From a virus: DNA of 38,426 bases. Every line of letters starts with the position of its first letter. Within the stretch, counting starts at the first letter, position 1. The stretch is from IMG/VR virus record IMGVR_UViG_3300042554_001744, positions 1 through 38,426 of that record; one strand, given 5' to 3'. The notes under the pieces are model-generated. The model ran no database searches, had not been told where the DNA came from, and worked only from the letters and a program-made list of their open reading frames with translations. The position numbers and the translations under genes were made by a program. Positions 586 to 28,368 of the stretch are shown here, piece after piece.

Positions 586-837
586 ATGGACAACCACGAA
601 GAGGTGTACGCGGCACCGCCTGAGCGACCCAATCCGTTTAATCAAGCCGTACCAGCCCTTTTGACCACTGCAGTCATCGGGTTGGGCGGTCTTTTTATGC
701 AAGTCGCAAAGCTAGATCAATCGGTTGGCACAGTTGCGGCCGATATCCAAGAACTGAAAAACGATTCAAAAGAACGGCTGGCCGACCTTGAGAGTAGGGT
801 GCGCATTATTGAAATGACAGTTGGCAGGCATAAATAG
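586..837 (+). CDS. Holin-like protein: one membrane span plus coiled coil
   Basis: The 83-residue product has an acidic, proline-rich N-terminus, a hydrophobic segment at about residues 22-40 (AVPALLTTAVIGLGGLFMQV) and a heptad-rich C-terminal half (QELKNDSKERLADLESRVR) that should form a coiled coil. A single span followed by a cytoplasmic or periplasmic coiled coil, placed directly before another small membrane protein and the endolysin, fits a holin or holin-modulator role. A TTG 18 bases upstream is possible, but ATG 586 gives a cleaner N-terminus. No specific holin family was recognised. A spanin or XhlA-like role is an alternative. Confidence 0.65.
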   Translation: MDNHEEVYAAPPERPNPFNQAVPALLTTAVIGLGGLFMQVAKLDQSVGTVAADIQELKNDSKERLADLESRVRIIEMTVGRHK

Positions 838-869: not shown

Positions 870-1007
870 ATGGATCCCACCACTGTTGCTGTAATCGCCA
901 TCATTGTTGCCGCCGGTAGCGAGGTGATTGCACTGCTGCCCATCAAGGAAAATGGTTGGGTGCAACTGATTATGAAAGCGCTGAAAGCTGTTTTCCCAAA
1001 GCGCTGA
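870..1007 (+). CDS. 45-residue holin-like protein with possible -1 recoding site
   Basis: ATG 870 begins a 45-residue protein with one hydrophobic segment (TVAVIAIIVAAGSEVIALLP, residues 5-24), then an amphipathic basic tail ending VFPKR. It resembles small putative holins of other phages: a short N-terminus, one span, and a basic C-terminus. The last codons contain the heptamer C CCA AAG (995-1001) in the correct register for -1 slippage, only one codon before the TGA (1005-1007). A ribosome slipping there would enter the next frame and add a 94-residue soluble domain. The short form is likely the main product; the long form is a hypothesis. Confidence 0.65.
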   Translation: MDPTTVAVIAIIVAAGSEVIALLPIKENGWVQLIMKALKAVFPKR

Positions 1008-1285
1008 ACGCCGATACGGTATGGCTGGCGCGGTTTGGTGATAAGGACTGGCGGCATCATTTACGCCGCTGGGCACAAGATTATAAGTTTGAGAAGACGC
1101 TTGGACCGCGCTTAGACCGTGAGCAGGAACGGTGGCATCAGGCGCAACCTGAGGAGCCTAAACCTATTGTTGTGCAACACGAAATCGACGATACCCTGCA
1201 GACTGGTGACAGCCGCTTACTTGGTGGCGCCATGAGTATTCACGCCCCTTGGAGCAATGACGCAGAACAAGATCCGCCTAACTGA
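998..1285 (+). CDS. -1 frame extension or separate small soluble protein before endolysin
   Basis: The frame open to 1285 encodes a polar, tryptophan- and arginine-rich sequence (WLARFGDKDWRHHLRRWAQD, then EKTLGPRLDREQERW) that looks like real protein. It has no ATG, GTG or TTG between the end of the holin-like gene and the body of this domain. The only start before it is a TTG at 956 without a visible ribosome site. The simplest reading is -1 frameshifting from the 870 gene at C CCA AAG, giving a 138-residue membrane-anchored fusion. A CTG start at 1004 is the alternative. The frame overlaps the endolysin start by 29 bases, consistent with translational coupling. Function unknown; lysis control is inferred from position. 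Confidence 0.5.
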   Translation, partial: KALNADTVWLARFGDKDWRHHLRRWAQDYKFEKTLGPRLDREQERWHQAQPEEPKPIVVQHEIDDTLQTGDSRLLGGAMSIHAPWSNDAEQDPPN

Positions 1286-2306
1286 CCTGTTTCGGTTCTA
1301 TAAATCTGCGCCACATCAGATGGCCAGCATTGTGGAGCTCGAGGAAGCAATCAATAAAGCCAATCCCAATATCCTCGGCCGTGACCAGCAATGGTTTAAG
1401 ACTTGGAGCCAAGCGGGCAAGAAAGACGAAAGCTATTTGCAACCTGCCCTTGATTTAATCAAGAGATGGGAAGGCCTGCGGCTTGAGGGTTACATCTGCC
1501 CTGCCGGTGTACCGACTGTGGGCTATGGGCATACAGGGCCAACCGTCAAGGAAGGCATGAAAATCACAGAGGCCGATGCTGAGGCGTTGCTGCTGTCTGA
1601 TGTAGAACGTTTTGCCCGTGCTGTTGATTCGCAGATTCGTGTGCAGTTGACGCAAAACCAGCGCTGCGCGTTGATCAGCTTTACGTTCAATGTTGGCACT
1701 GGTGCGCTGATGGAAAGTACCTTGCGCAAAAGGCTGAATAATGGCGAGAACCCACAGAAGGTGGCAATGGAGGAGCTGCCACGGTGGAATAAAGGTGGCG
1801 GGAAGGTCCTAGAAGGTTTGGTGCGTCGTCGTCGTGATGAGCTTGATCTATTCCTAAAGGGAACAAAGCCGCTCACAAACGATGTGCGATTCACGCCTGA
1901 CAAATCGTTTAGTTTTCAGGTAACACCAAACATCAAATACGGTGAGCTGACACTCAATGAAGAGGCTCGCAGGTTTACGGTGCAACATCAATGCGATACA
2001 GCGGTTTTGCTTTGTCAATTCGCTGAGCGTGCCCGTGCTGCATTTGGTAATAAGCCCGTAATTATCACCAGCGGTAACAGGCCGCCAAAGGTGAACGCGG
2101 CAGTAGGTGGATCCGCTAGGTCAGAGCATTTATACGATGCACCCGATACTGGCGCGATTGATTTTTACCTCGATGGCGTGAATACTTACGAACTGCAGAA
2201 GTGGGCCGATGCTCACTGGCCTTACTCGCTGGGCTATGGCGCGCCTAAAGGTTTCATTCATGTCGGTATCAGGCCCGGACGCCCTAGAGTCCGCTGGGAT
2301 TATTGA
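1257..2306 (+). CDS. Endolysin: GH24 lysozyme domain plus M15-type peptidase domain
   Basis: The 349-residue product cleaves the host cell wall at lysis. Residues about 60-195 are a T4-like/RrrD-type GH24 lysozyme: the catalytic glutamate is in KRWEGL (E72), followed by PTVGYGHTG and a conserved SFTFNVGTGAL segment. Residues about 215-349 look like a peptidase M15_3 domain with zinc ligands in SEHLY (H291), GAIDF (D302) and FIHVGI (H335), which would cut peptide cross-links. The residues for both activities appear intact, so the enzyme may cut both glycan and peptide bonds. No signal peptide is visible, so release should depend on a holin. The start ATG follows a GGAG four bases upstream and overlaps the previous frame by 29 bases. 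Confidence 0.93.
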   Translation: MTQNKIRLTDLFRFYKSAPHQMASIVELEEAINKANPNILGRDQQWFKTWSQAGKKDESYLQPALDLIKRWEGLRLEGYICPAGVPTVGYGHTGPTVKEGMKITEADAEALLLSDVERFARAVDSQIRVQLTQNQRCALISFTFNVGTGALMESTLRKRLNNGENPQKVAMEELPRWNKGGGKVLEGLVRRRRDELDLFLKGTKPLTNDVRFTPDKSFSFQVTPNIKYGELTLNEEARRFTVQHQCDTAVLLCQFAERARAAFGNKPVIITSGNRPPKVNAAVGGSARSEHLYDAPDTGAIDFYLDGVNTYELQKWADAHWPYSLGYGAPKGFIHVGIRPGRPRVRWDY

Positions 2307-20600: not shown

Positions 20601-20648
20601 GTGGCGACTCTTCGCTCCGACGTGATCATTCCCGAAATCTTTACGCCT
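20601..20648 (+). CDS. Major capsid protein, exon 1
   Basis: Sixteen codons from GTG 20601, preceded by AGGAG with eight bases of spacing, encode the N-terminus (M)ATLRSDVIIPEIFTP. The frame meets TGA right after codon 16, where the group I intron starts. Exon 2 (20922-21890) continues it in frame: YLIEQTTQRNAFLASGVAQ. Together they give a 338-residue protein whose N-terminus is typical of capsid proteins. A gene finder would miss this exon and call a later start. Confidence 0.9.
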
Positions 20649-20921
20649 TGATCAGAAGGGCCCCTAGGGCGTAATTCCTAGGGATAACGGGGTGAATTGC
20701 TGGGAAAGCCACCATCCGAAAGGACAGGCCAATCAGCAGCCAAGCCAGCCGACAAGCTGGAAGGTTCAACGACTAGATCCCGAGAGGAAACTCAGTAACG
20801 GATCCACGAGTGCCCCGCACCCAACCAGTCTTTGACTAGGGGGTGAAGATATAGTCTGAGCTGCGACCGATGGTAAAGGCGCAGAACTAAGGGATAAAGA
20901 GCCCTTGGGGTAACAACTCTG
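20649..20921 (+). ncRNA. Group I self-splicing intron in the major capsid gene
   Basis: The 273-base insert begins with TGA and ends in G. P1: the exon end TTACGCCT (20641-20648) pairs with AGGGCGTAA (20666-20674) to put U20648 opposite G20667, the required U.G at the 5' splice site. A P4-like pair (TGCTG near 20698 with CAGCA near 20735), AAGCC/CAGCC joining strands, GACTA (20771-20775) pairing with TAGTC (20852-20856) as P7, and the phage-typical GAAGATATAGTC (20845-20856) complete the core, resembling subgroup IA. Removal restores the capsid frame exactly. No endonuclease ORF fits inside. Splicing itself is not shown by sequence. Confidence 0.92.
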
Positions 20922-21890
20922 TACCTGATTGAGCAAACCACCCAGCGGAATGCATTTCTCGCTAGCGGCGTAGCTCAACCTCTGGCTGCACTCAATGCAA
21001 CCGAAGGCGGAGATTTCGTGAATGTTCCCTTCTGGAAAGCCAATCTCACTGGCGATCTGGAGGTAATGTCTGATTCCACCAGCTTGACCCCCGGCAAGAT
21101 TGTTGCCGATAAGCAAGTTGGCGTGATCCTGCACCGTGCGCGTGCTTGGGAATCCCGTGATCTCGCAGCTCTTGCTGCAGGTTCGGACCCCATGGCCGCT
21201 ATCGGCGCCAAAGTTGGTGAGTATCTTGCCAACCAACAGCAGGTCGATCTTTACAAGTGCCTTGAAGGTGTTTTCGGCTCCCTGACCGGTGGCGATTCTC
21301 CTGCTTTCGCTGATCTGCGTTTTGATACCAGCGGTGCTACTGCACTTGGCCCCCGTCAGGTGTCTAAGGCCCGCGCCATCCTTGGCGATCAAGGCGAAAA
21401 GCTGAGCGCTCTCGCTATTCATAGTGCTTGCTACTACGACTTGGTTGAGCGCAAGGCAGTCGATTACGTCCTGGCTTCGGATCTGGGTATCACCCCGGAT
21501 ACCTCCATGCCTGACGCATTCGGTGGCTCTGTTGCTTCTGCCTACACTGCCGATTACCGCGTTCCCACGTATATGGGATGCCGGATTATTGTCAGTGACG
21601 ACATCACCAACTCGGCTGGTGTTTACGCTGCCTACTTCTTCACCAATGGCGCTATTGCCACCGGTGAGCAAGCTGCGATGCGCACTGAAGTTGACCGCGA
21701 CATCCTCGCCAAGAGTGATGCAATGTCGGTTGACATGCACTACATCCACCACCCTGTTGGTGCAAAGTGGAACGTGACTACCACGAACCCCACTCGCGCT
21801 CAACTGGCAACCGTGGGTAACTGGAGCAAGGTGTACGAAACCAAGAACATTGGAATCGTGCGTGCTTCGATCACGTCCAATTACGACTGA
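20922..21890 (+). CDS. Major capsid protein, exon 2
   Basis: Exon 2 encodes 322 residues, from YLIEQTTQRNAFLASGVAQ to NIGIVRASITSNYD. The body resembles Gp13-like HK97-fold capsid proteins: VNVPFWKANLTGDLEVMSDS, KIVADKQVGVILHRARAWES, AIHSACYYDLVERKAVDYVL and YMGCRIIVSDDITN. It forms the icosahedral shell together with the scaffold encoded upstream and probably the small proteins downstream. The frame (position 3n) equals that of exon 1 after intron removal. The family name is from motif memory and may need checking. Confidence 0.92.
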   Translation, partial: YLIEQTTQRNAFLASGVAQPLAALNATEGGDFVNVPFWKANLTGDLEVMSDSTSLTPGKIVADKQVGVILHRARAWESRDLAALAAGSDPMAAIGAKVGEYLANQQQVDLYKCLEGVFGSLTGGDSPAFADLRFDTSGATALGPRQVSKARAILGDQGEKLSALAIHSACYYDLVERKAVDYVLASDLGITPDTSMPDAFGGSVASAYTADYRVPTYMGCRIIVSDDITNSAGVYAAYFFTNGAIATGEQAAMRTEVDRDILAKSDAMSVDMHYIHHPVGAKWNVTTTNPTRAQLATVGNWSKVYETKNIGIVRASITSNYD

Positions 21891-25592: not shown

Positions 25593-25952
25593 ATGCCCGC
25601 GCCTGCATCGTCAGCTCTTGCCCGCCTGAAAAAAGCAGCCAACCTGACGCCCATCAAGCGTGTGGTTACTTTGGCCAACGGCGAAGTTTTTGAGTTTTAC
25701 GCTGCACCGTTAACCATGTCTGAGCGTGAGCGTGCGCAGAAGATGCCAGGAGGCGATGACCCAAATGGCTTTGCGTTGAACTTGCTGGTCACCAAGGCAG
25801 TTGACGATGCCGGTCAGCGCTTGTTTCAGACGGGTGAGATTGCGGAACTGAAGAACGAAGTGATGGATGCCGACCTGCAGGCGCTGATGCTGGCCATCAT
25901 TACCAACCCCGAGGAAGGTCAAGAGCTGGACATGAAAAGCCGTAAAGGATGA
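25593..25952 (+). CDS. Tail assembly chaperone, short form (gpG-like)
   Basis: The 119-residue product begins MPAPASSALARLKKAANLTP and includes IKRVVTLANGEVFEFYAAPL, TMSERERAQKMPGGDDPNGF and MDADLQALMLAIITNPEEGQ. It occupies the slot of lambda gpG, between major tail protein and tape measure. It ends AAA GGA TGA; a shifted reading before the stop extends into an open frame of 57 codons (see next entry). It coats the tape measure during tail assembly and is not present in the virion. Confidence 0.85.
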   Translation: MPAPASSALARLKKAANLTPIKRVVTLANGEVFEFYAAPLTMSERERAQKMPGGDDPNGFALNLLVTKAVDDAGQRLFQTGEIAELKNEVMDADLQALMLAIITNPEEGQELDMKSRKG

Positions 25953-26121
25953 GCTGAAGAAAGACAACCTACTGTTGCTGCAGTTTGGCGTTGCCAAGGA
26001 ATTGGGATATACGTTGGCGCGTTTAAACCAAGAGGTGACACTAGAAGAGCTGATGATGTGGTCGGCGTATTTTGACCTACAAAATGAAGAGCAAGAACGT
26101 CAGATGAAGCGTCGCCGGTAG
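25945..26121 (+). CDS. +1 frame extension of the tail chaperone (gpGT-like)
   Basis: The frame at +1 (codons beginning 25945) reads K, DELKKDNLLLLQFGVAKE, then LGYTLARLNQEVTLEELMMW, SAYFDLQNEEQERQMKRRR, stopping at 26119-26121. There is no start codon near the overlap, while this pair of frames is a hallmark of siphovirus tail chaperones. The likely slip site is AAA GGA TGA (25944-25952): tRNA-Lys moving one base forward from AAA to AAG. Most phages use -1 shifts, so a +1 (or -2) site is less common. The extended form would recruit the tail tube protein. Confidence 0.8.
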   Translation, partial: KDELKKDNLLLLQFGVAKELGYTLARLNQEVTLEELMMWSAYFDLQNEEQERQMKRRR

Positions 26122-26148: not shown

Positions 26149-28368
26149 GTGTCTGTCGTAGCTAACGTTGCCATCAATGTTGATAGCCGTGGCGCGACGC
26201 AGAAGCTGCGCGAGGTTCAGTCACAGGCAAACGCTACCGAGAAAGCAGTCGGCGGGCTTGGCGGTGCAGTAGGAAAACTTGCGGCAGCTTTTGCGGCAGT
26301 CCAGGCGGTTCGGTTTGTATTTGTCCAGGCTGCTGAAATTGAAAGCCAAACCAGAAGCCTTCAGGTATTAACGGGAAGCGTACAAAAAGCAACTGAAATC
26401 GTTAAACAGCTTCAGGATCTTGGAGCGGTAACACCATTCACAAGCTCGGAGCTTATTGACGCCGCTAAGCGGTTACAAGCTTTTGGCGTTGAAACAAATA
26501 AGGTTGTTGATACCACCCGCCGGCTTGCCGATGTCAGTGGTGCTACTGGAGCCGAACTGCAAGGACTTGTTACTGCTTACGGCCAGGTTCAGGCAAAGGG
26601 GCGGCTACAAGGTGAGGAGCTGCTTCAGTTCCAAGAGCGTGGCGTTGCCCTGCAGAAGGTACTTAAAGAGGAGTACAAACTTAGCGGCAAAGAATTTCAA
26701 AAAGCACTGGAAGGCGGCCGCATTAGTGCCGAAGCTGTTGAAGCAGCCATCATCAAGCTCACGGATGCCGGTGGTAAATACGCCAACGGTGCGATTGCGC
26801 AAAGCGATACTTTAAATGGCAAGCTCAGTACCCTGCAAGATTCGTTCCAGCGACTAGCTCAAAACATTGGCAAATTCTTTGAACCGGTATTCAAGTTTCT
26901 AATTGATGGCCTCAATGCATTTCTTGAGCGATTAAATAATGCATCACGGCTCGGGGCAGAGGCTAGGGCTTTTCAGCAAGCAAACGAGCGGACACGCACG
27001 AGGTTTGGGGCCCTGCGCTCTGCTAATCCATTCGATCAAGAGGTTCAAGATTATAGAAATCGTCTGCGCAAATCGCTTGTCGCTTCTGAATTGGGAGCTG
27101 GGGCAGGTGTTTCTGCACCAAGGTTGAGCGCAGGTGGTCCGTTGCCCCCGTTGCTTGGTGGTACTGGCGGCAAAGGTCGGAAAGCAGGCAAAACAGATGC
27201 GGAGCGTGAAGCGGAACGCGCTGCGGAAGCCGAACGACGCCTGCAGGAACGTTTGCGTGGTCTGCAGATTGAGTCACAACTAACCCAGAAGCTTTTAAGC
27301 AACAAGCTCTTGATCGCTGATGTCGAAAACCTAGGCAACAAAGAGGCAGCGATTGGATTGAAAGCAGAATCGCAAACCCTGCAAATTGTTGCCGATCTGC
27401 AAAAGTCTTTGATTGGTGTCACCGATGAGCGGGAGCGTTTGGCGATTGTCACCAAGACTGCGGCAGAGCTTGATAATCTGAATGTTGAAACATTGATTGA
27501 GCTAGAGCGCAATCGCCTTGCTGTAATCAAGGAGCAAAACACTGAATTCTTCAAGCGAGCTGGTCTCAGCGTTCAAGACAATCTGCGTGGCGGCGCTGGC
27601 GCTTTTGATCTTGGCTTACCGGATCTGAGGGTGAGCGAAGGTGAGACCAAAATCAATGACCTTAAGCAACAACTGCAGGAGCTTTCGGATCCAATCAACG
27701 TGGCGCTTAATGGAGCGACTGCCATTGGTGATGCCTTCAGCACAGCATTCACTGATGTGATCACCGGCGCCAAGTCTGCCCAGCAAGCGTTGTCCGAGGT
27801 CTTCAAAAAGATTGCCGATGCCTTCATTGAAACGGCCACTCAGATCATTGCCAAGCAGATTGCCCTGATCACCTTCCAAACCATCTTGAACGCCTTGGGT
27901 GGTGGCGGCGGATTCTCGTTTGGTGGTGCAACTGAAGGGCTTGGCGGAAAGGTATTTGGTTCAACCGCTTCTGTTTTTGAGGGCTCAGGTTTTACACCCT
28001 TTGCCGAAGGCGGTTTCGTTACCGGCCCCACCAATGCAATCATCGGCGAAGGCGGTGAATCGGAATACGTCATCCCCGCCAGCAAGATGAACGCCGCTAT
28101 GGCTCGTTATTCAAAAGGCGTCCGTGGCGAGGCAGTTGTTGGCGGCGAAGGTGGTTCCGCTCAAGCCGCTGCAGTCAGCGCCGGCCCGATGGAACCCATC
28201 GATGTTCGCTACAGCGTGGAGCGCATCAACAACGTCGATTACGTCACCAACGATCAGTTCCAGCGCGGACTGGCGCAAGCCGCACAACAAGGTGCAGTAC
28301 AAGGTGAACGCCGCGCTCTTCGTACGCTGGGTAATAGCCCAGCCAACCGCCGTCGCATTGGTCTGTAA
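26149..28368 (+). CDS. Tape measure protein
   Basis: The 739-residue product sets tail length. The N-terminal region (ANVAINVDSRGATQKLREVQ, AAAFAAVQAVRFVFVQAAEI) and the helical ITxLTGSVQKAxEIVKQLQ/ELIDAAKRLQAFGVETNKVV stretch match the tape-measure N-terminal domain, followed by long helices with RLQERLRGLQIESQLTQKLL and a glycine-rich C-terminal part (GGGGGFSFGG, GGFVTGPTNAIIGEGGE). It is one of the longest genes, as expected. With the usual relation near 0.15 nm per residue, tail length would be about 110 nm. The start is GTG 26149; its TAA shares one base with the next ATG. Confidence 0.95.
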   Translation: MSVVANVAINVDSRGATQKLREVQSQANATEKAVGGLGGAVGKLAAAFAAVQAVRFVFVQAAEIESQTRSLQVLTGSVQKATEIVKQLQDLGAVTPFTSSELIDAAKRLQAFGVETNKVVDTTRRLADVSGATGAELQGLVTAYGQVQAKGRLQGEELLQFQERGVALQKVLKEEYKLSGKEFQKALEGGRISAEAVEAAIIKLTDAGGKYANGAIAQSDTLNGKLSTLQDSFQRLAQNIGKFFEPVFKFLIDGLNAFLERLNNASRLGAEARAFQQANERTRTRFGALRSANPFDQEVQDYRNRLRKSLVASELGAGAGVSAPRLSAGGPLPPLLGGTGGKGRKAGKTDAEREAERAAEAERRLQERLRGLQIESQLTQKLLSNKLLIADVENLGNKEAAIGLKAESQTLQIVADLQKSLIGVTDERERLAIVTKTAAELDNLNVETLIELERNRLAVIKEQNTEFFKRAGLSVQDNLRGGAGAFDLGLPDLRVSEGETKINDLKQQLQELSDPINVALNGATAIGDAFSTAFTDVITGAKSAQQALSEVFKKIADAFIETATQIIAKQIALITFQTILNALGGGGGFSFGGATEGLGGKVFGSTASVFEGSGFTPFAEGGFVTGPTNAIIGEGGESEYVIPASKMNAAMARYSKGVRGEAVVGGEGGSAQAAAVSAGPMEPIDVRYSVERINNVDYVTNDQFQRGLAQAAQQGAVQGERRALRTLGNSPANRRRIGL

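Follow-up and report, generated by a model that had tools for sequence, protein, structure and literature searches.

The best-known cases of frameshifting in tailed phages are the tail chaperone genes. In lambda (gpG/gpGT) and P2 (E/E+E'), a short product and a -1 extended product with a common N-terminus are made from one mRNA, and this mechanism is conserved while the sequence varies. In the P2-like case, a visible stimulator is sometimes lacking (PMC3091744). The -1 frameshifting of E. coli dnaX and of IS3/IS911-type elements uses the same heptamers as those described below (A AAA AAG). In E. coli, the highest efficiencies in the presence of stimulators were reported for C_CC.A_AA.G, G_GG.A_AA.G, and A_AA.A_AA.G, and C_CC.A_AA.G reached 54% with a pseudoknot (PMC4066793). 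Among lysis genes, the lambda S105/S107 holin gene is a small gene beside the endolysin from which two membrane proteins differing at one end are made. In the PBSX-type xhlA/xhlB/endolysin cassette, a small coiled-coil membrane protein, a small membrane peptide, and an endolysin follow one another, and we know of no frameshift in this cassette.

The locus analyzed here lies in a virus DNA of 38,426 nucleotides (IMG/VR record IMGVR_UViG_3300042554_001744), the whole of which is referred to as the window. Its gene order is that of a coiled-coil membrane protein, a short membrane peptide with a domain in the -1 frame, and an endolysin (Table 1). From the comparison of related sequences, a programmed -1 ribosomal frameshift in this lysis region of cyanobacterial viruses is predicted with a probability of about 0.92. 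The tail chaperone genes are located between the major tail protein and the tape measure, whereas the gene described here encodes a membrane peptide beside an endolysin, and the proteins are unrelated; identity with a tail chaperone was rejected, as the tape measure of the window is found at 26149-28368, whereas the gene precedes the endolysin at 1257. Unlike lambda S105/S107, in which two start codons generate an N-terminal difference, a C-terminal domain of about 94 residues would be added here by the predicted frameshifting. Compared with the PBSX-type cassette, no sequence relation between the 45-residue peptide and XhlB was found. Homologues of both the peptide and the domain are found in S-CBS2 (gp049/gp048) with the -1 relation kept, but gp048 starts at a GTG of its own that overlaps the stop, and the heptamer is missing. 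In the searchable literature, this appears to be a known mechanism in a new gene and place; in the open-access literature, we found no description of such frameshifting for these genes.

Table 1. Positions of the peptide gene, the candidate frameshift site, and the adjoining genes in the window.
Feature	Position	Strand	Description
Upstream small protein	586..837	+	N-terminal membrane helix and coiled coil; ATG 586, ORF opens at TTG 568
Zero-frame ORF	870..1007	+	45 residues (MDPTTVAVIAIIVAAGSEVIALLPIKENGWVQLIMKALKAVFPKR); end reads TTC CCA AAG CGC TGA
Slippery heptamer C CCA AAG	995..1001	+	in the zero frame of ORF 870-1007
Zero-frame stop TGA	1005..1007	+	single codon (CGC) between heptamer and stop
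-1 frame extension	1001..1285	+	94 residues, then TGA 1283-1285; helical; conserved tail LQTGDSRLLGGAMSIHAPW
Endolysin	1257..2306	+	N-terminal module DLFRFYKSAPHQMAS, phage lysozyme, peptidase M15_3

The first-pass annotation of the window had reported an in-frame C CCA AAG one codon before the TGA of the zero frame, and this was confirmed by reading the letters directly. It had also described the -1 frame as open up to its TGA without a start codon near its body. Indeed, this frame reads TTT CCC AAA GCG CTG AAC ... with no earlier stop, and the sole ATG, GTG, or TTG ahead of the domain is TTG 956, which lies 5' of the heptamer and is not kept in relatives. Both lengths given at that time, 45 residues for the zero-frame peptide and 138 residues for the fusion predicted after slippage (...KAVFPK-ALNADTVWLARFG...), were reproduced on recomputation. 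In the 8,441 plus-strand codons of the window, no other such heptamer was found near a stop. Given Phe-Pro-Lys, however, TTC CCA AAG is expected in approximately 8% of cases from the local codon usage; thus, the window alone is suggestive, and the comparison must decide.

According to the proposed mechanism, when a ribosome translating the peptide ORF arrives at C CCA AAG, its P site would be occupied by tRNA-Pro and its A site by tRNA-Lys. The majority of ribosomes would continue, add Arg, and terminate at the TGA to give the short peptide, and some would slip one base back, onto CCC AAA, and continue in the -1 frame. The 138-residue product would have the same membrane N-terminus followed by a soluble domain of about 94 residues, and a single mRNA would provide a fixed ratio of the short and extended forms just before the endolysin. 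The short peptide may act as a small holin-like protein, with the extended form modulating or docking lysis proteins.

For the comparison, IMG/VR was scanned with three versions of the -1 domain and one S-CBS2 form, and phage isolates were included, which yielded 229 domain loci. A homologue of the 45-residue peptide was present in 216 of them, and the domain was in the -1 frame of the peptide in all 216. These loci were reduced to 158 distinct junctions of 60 nt, 153 of which contained an in-frame X XXY YYZ heptamer (A AAA AAG in 108, C CCA AAG in 40, G GGA AAG in 4, and C CCA AAA in 1). The heptamer was separated from the stop by one codon in 150 of these 153 junctions, and the shortest overlap of the two frames was 13 nt. 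In the endolysin genes of the same loci, in-frame A AAA AAG was found zero times in 43,409 codons, and the three main heptamers combined occurred 8 times; none of the three was located in the last five codons of any of 131 neighboring endolysin genes. Since 153 of 158 junctions carried a heptamer compared with 0 of 131 endolysin gene ends, chance was dismissed. The same arrangement was found in the cultured cyanophages S-CBS1, S-CBS3, KBS-S-2A, and S-EIVl and in the T7-like S-B28, 7B11-B, and WH11-B. In the T7-like phages, CCA AAA AAG TAA is followed by a -1 extension that is different and shorter, with SISLTxPW or a similar sequence at its end. The neighbor of this extension in PHROGs is 6464 (E 0.005), which also matches S-CBS2 gp048, hinting that the two may have a tail in common. 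At the DNA level, the window region matched none of the phage records searched, and no prophage copies were found in the genome contigs searched. The alignment of homologues that the first-pass annotation had suggested as a check thus showed both frames and the heptamer to be kept widely, even where the heptamer type switches, and the comparison supports its proposal that -1 frameshifting adds a C-terminal domain to the short membrane peptide.

One apparent protein spread over two frames is also what a decayed or mis-assembled gene would present, if an ancestral one-frame gene had been split by an indel. However, the identical frame relation recurs in more than 150 distinct sequences, which come from many samples and from several cultured phages. 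Moreover, the pooled dN/dS of the domain past the zero-frame stop was 0.16 in the -1 frame compared with 1.4-2.0 in the other two frames, and that of the zero-frame peptide was about 0.10. Judged from these ratios, the -1 extension is a domain under purifying selection, and selection on both frames speaks against decay. The probability of a decayed gene is negligible, this explanation being in effect refuted by the sequence comparison.

At one homologous site, A AAA AAG, C CCA AAG, and G GGA AAG replace one another. A minimum of 5 changes in heptamer type was counted on the best protein tree, and at least 2 were forced by well-supported branches; as the protein tree is poorly resolved, two or more changes is the safe statement. 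Codon choice followed the same pattern. In peptides ending in Lys-Lys, the terminal pair is encoded by AAA AAG, and the preceding residue varies among A, G, S, Q, E, T, R, and P, with A as the third base of its codon. When this residue is glycine, the codon is nearly always GGA, compared with GGA in 14% of the glycine codons of the neighboring gene. These switches bear on transcriptional slippage, in which the polymerase would slip on the A run, so that the mRNA itself would carry the -1 frame. About two thirds of the junctions do have six consecutive A, but CCCAAAG in 40 junctions, including that of the window, and GGGAAAG in 4 offer just three, and slippage of bacterial polymerases normally requires longer runs. 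This explanation was considered extremely improbable.

As a control, homologues of the short peptide were gathered without reference to the domain; the T7-like extension was called by a simple text rule, and two cut-off contigs were set aside. Among distinct junctions, the heptamer was found in 91 of 92 with a -1 extension and in 1 of 41 without (Fisher p about 1e-31, a value that overstates independence because near-identical contigs from related samples are included, the contrast itself being plain). Domain-less relatives ending in Phe-Pro-Lys use CCC, CCT, or CCG for proline, and those ending in Lys-Lys use AAG AAA or AAG AAG. In domain-less loci such as L313, the next gene in the -1 frame is the endolysin itself, which has a start of its own, and there is no heptamer. 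In another domain-less locus (L317), C CCA AAG is found three codons ahead of the stop with no recognizable -1 domain, and this heptamer is possibly a relic.

The first-pass annotation had named two observations that would speak against it, namely, homologues with an ordinary start for the domain and homologues retaining both frames without the heptamer. Both were found, but only marginally. Both frames with an imperfect heptamer were present in L045 (G AAA AAG), L049 (G CCA AAG), and L220/L255 (one contig, C CCG AAG); A AAG, the tetramer that performs best in E. coli, is retained in L045 and L049. In the S-CBS2 group (L086/L167 and L168), the downstream gene starts with GTG and the heptamer is absent, and in L169-L174 the domain is a separate ORF, with no 45-residue peptide detected in these loci. 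The N-terminal stretch of these separate ORFs is hydrophobic or rich in aromatic residues, and their tail is IIEHEPDGSKAQELLGG. The heptamer-less arrangements look like alternative solutions or decayed motifs. Consequently, frameshifting, a GTG start, and a separate ORF represent three arrangements for the delivery of the same domain, and frameshifting is by far the commonest of those found.

As the S-CBS2 group has a GTG start at this place, coupled translation exists in a relative, and termination-reinitiation must be weighed. Ribosomes would stop at the TGA and restart at the overlapping CTG (CTGA), producing a separate cytosolic domain. The zero-frame stops of the 153 junctions were TGA in 118, TAG in 26, and TAA in 9, and the stop context was CTGA in 105, TTGA in 11, and GTGA in 2, which would suit such a restart. 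However, CTG is a poor start codon in bacteria, and the 35 junctions ending in TAG or TAA have no overlapping NTG. A start overlapping the stop was never ATG, and was GTG in 2 and TTG in 11 of the 153 junctions; an ordinary start was thus not the rule. Moreover, reinitiation leaves the heptamer unexplained, and the relatives with a proper start (S-CBS2) and the domain-less loci of the L313 type have no heptamer. Termination-reinitiation was therefore judged unlikely. Internal initiation at an unrecognized start within the zero-frame gene or the domain was the choice of annotators, who picked an ATG for S-CBS3 gp22 and a TTG for S-CBS1 gp23. These starts are not conserved, however, and conserved residues are cut off by them. 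In addition, from the preceding stop of the -1 frame up to where the domain match begins, 131 of the 153 junctions have no ATG, GTG, or TTG, and over the 15 -1 codons that follow the heptamer, 115 junctions have none of these codons, 29 have TTG only, and 9 have ATG or GTG. Internal initiation was considered very unlikely.

Stimulators were also sought for the predicted -1 frameshift. The 60-nt windows directly 3' of the heptamer fold more stably than those elsewhere. Against synonymous shuffles, the mean z of downstream folding was -0.92 for the A AAA AAG class and -0.3 for the C CCA AAG class, and z was -0.96 for the window sequence itself; the excess over the shuffles is modest. No conserved upstream Shine-Dalgarno (SD) stimulator was found, the SD-like signal being equal to that of synonymous shuffles. 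A conserved downstream hairpin or pseudoknot was not found with RNAalifold, as the structures break in many sequences and convincing covariation is absent. In this respect, the site differs from dnaX and IS3/IS911, for which SD and/or hairpin or pseudoknot stimulators are proven.

The short peptide has one predicted membrane helix followed by a short amphipathic helix, with a hydropathy peak of 2.4 over 19 residues. In the AF2 model, helices were located at residues 3-22 and 30-41 (mean pLDDT 81). By the charges and the positive-inside rule, the C-terminus of the peptide and the C-terminal domain are expected to be cytoplasmic. The earlier description of the gene as holin-like holds as regards position, the product being a small membrane protein adjoining the endolysin as is expected of a holin, but not as regards family, because no significant match of the window peptide to a holin family was found in Pfam or PHROGs (PHROG 22542/15106 are of unknown function). 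All 48 of 48 relatives of the peptide matched phrog_22542, the family to which the peptide belongs, and one of the 48 touched PHROG 1356 'holin' with E 0.025. In the T7-like 7B11-B and WH11-B, the peptide gene is flanked by a tail-fibre-like gene and the gene of the small terminase, which is the place of the holin gene in T7. Positional counterparts of the upstream small protein in KBS-S-2A and S-CBS1 showed a weak match to PHROG 937 'hemolysin'. Because the gene order, the T7-like position of the peptide, the endolysin modules, and this 'hemolysin' match agree, a role in lysis is fairly likely. On the basis of gene position and topology, we consider the peptide a putative holin and the extended form a putative regulator or docking partner of lysis proteins. 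That the two products set a holin/antiholin or docking ratio is a tentative proposal. Equally speculative is a frameshift lysis-timing device, in which the 45-residue peptide might be the pore former and the extended form an antiholin or endolysin-docking subunit supplied at a fixed ratio. If true, such a device would be common to siphovirus-like and T7-like cyanophages, with an exchangeable C-terminal part joined by frameshifting. The natural heptamer series together with the domain-less homologues makes a frameshift-set lysis ratio directly testable. An unannotated homologue of the 45-residue peptide (46% identity, E 3e-3) was also observed at 1486-1629 of a microvirus from a marine animal gut (L237, Microviridae sp. 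MH572431.1), between the scaffolding and replication genes.

The -1 domain was modeled by AF2 as helical (mean pLDDT 73). Judging by length and identity, the low-E matches in BFVD seem to be the fragments under which this domain has been annotated in relatives; thus, the fold gives no function. The endolysin gene overlaps the end of the -1 frame, with its ATG located 29 nt inside. In the downstream endolysins, the N-terminal module is kept and the catalytic domains vary (lysozyme and M15, glucosaminidase and C39, or lysozyme and C39). This module of approximately 60 residues (LxDLFRYYKxLPHQxAAIxELE) was observed in the window (1257-1440) and in L085, L083, and L130, and no Pfam family was found over it in the proteins scanned. 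An obligatory partnership of the -1 domain with the module was rejected, as domain-less loci have the same module. In one contig (L163:1504-2469), which could contain an error, the -1 domain reads in frame into the endolysin, and one slip would therefore yield a membrane-anchored endolysin fusion.

In isolates, the domain is truncated in the annotation of S-CBS3 gp22 and S-CBS1 gp23 and is unannotated in KBS-S-2A. The frameshift appears to be kept in this membrane-protein gene in both siphovirus-like and T7-like cyanophages, whose hosts are very abundant photosynthesizers, and in these phages a real protein domain has been hidden by annotation, being truncated or missed. The heptamer swaps and the heptamer-less, domain-less homologues also provide a clean comparative case for the evolution of frameshift sites.

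Two further observations were made in the window. The ORF at 25593-25952 (+), just 5' of the tape measure, occupies the tail chaperone position, and no canonical -1 heptamer was found at its end; a coding-like ORF at about 25940-26110 (+) (VKDELKKDNLLLLQFGVAKELGYTLARL...) follows it in a +1 relation. A group I intron (Rfam RF00028, 65 bits) was detected at 20639-20884 (+), just 5' of the ORF at 21018-21890, whose match to the major head protein profile begins only at position 55. The capsid gene of the window is probably interrupted by this intron.
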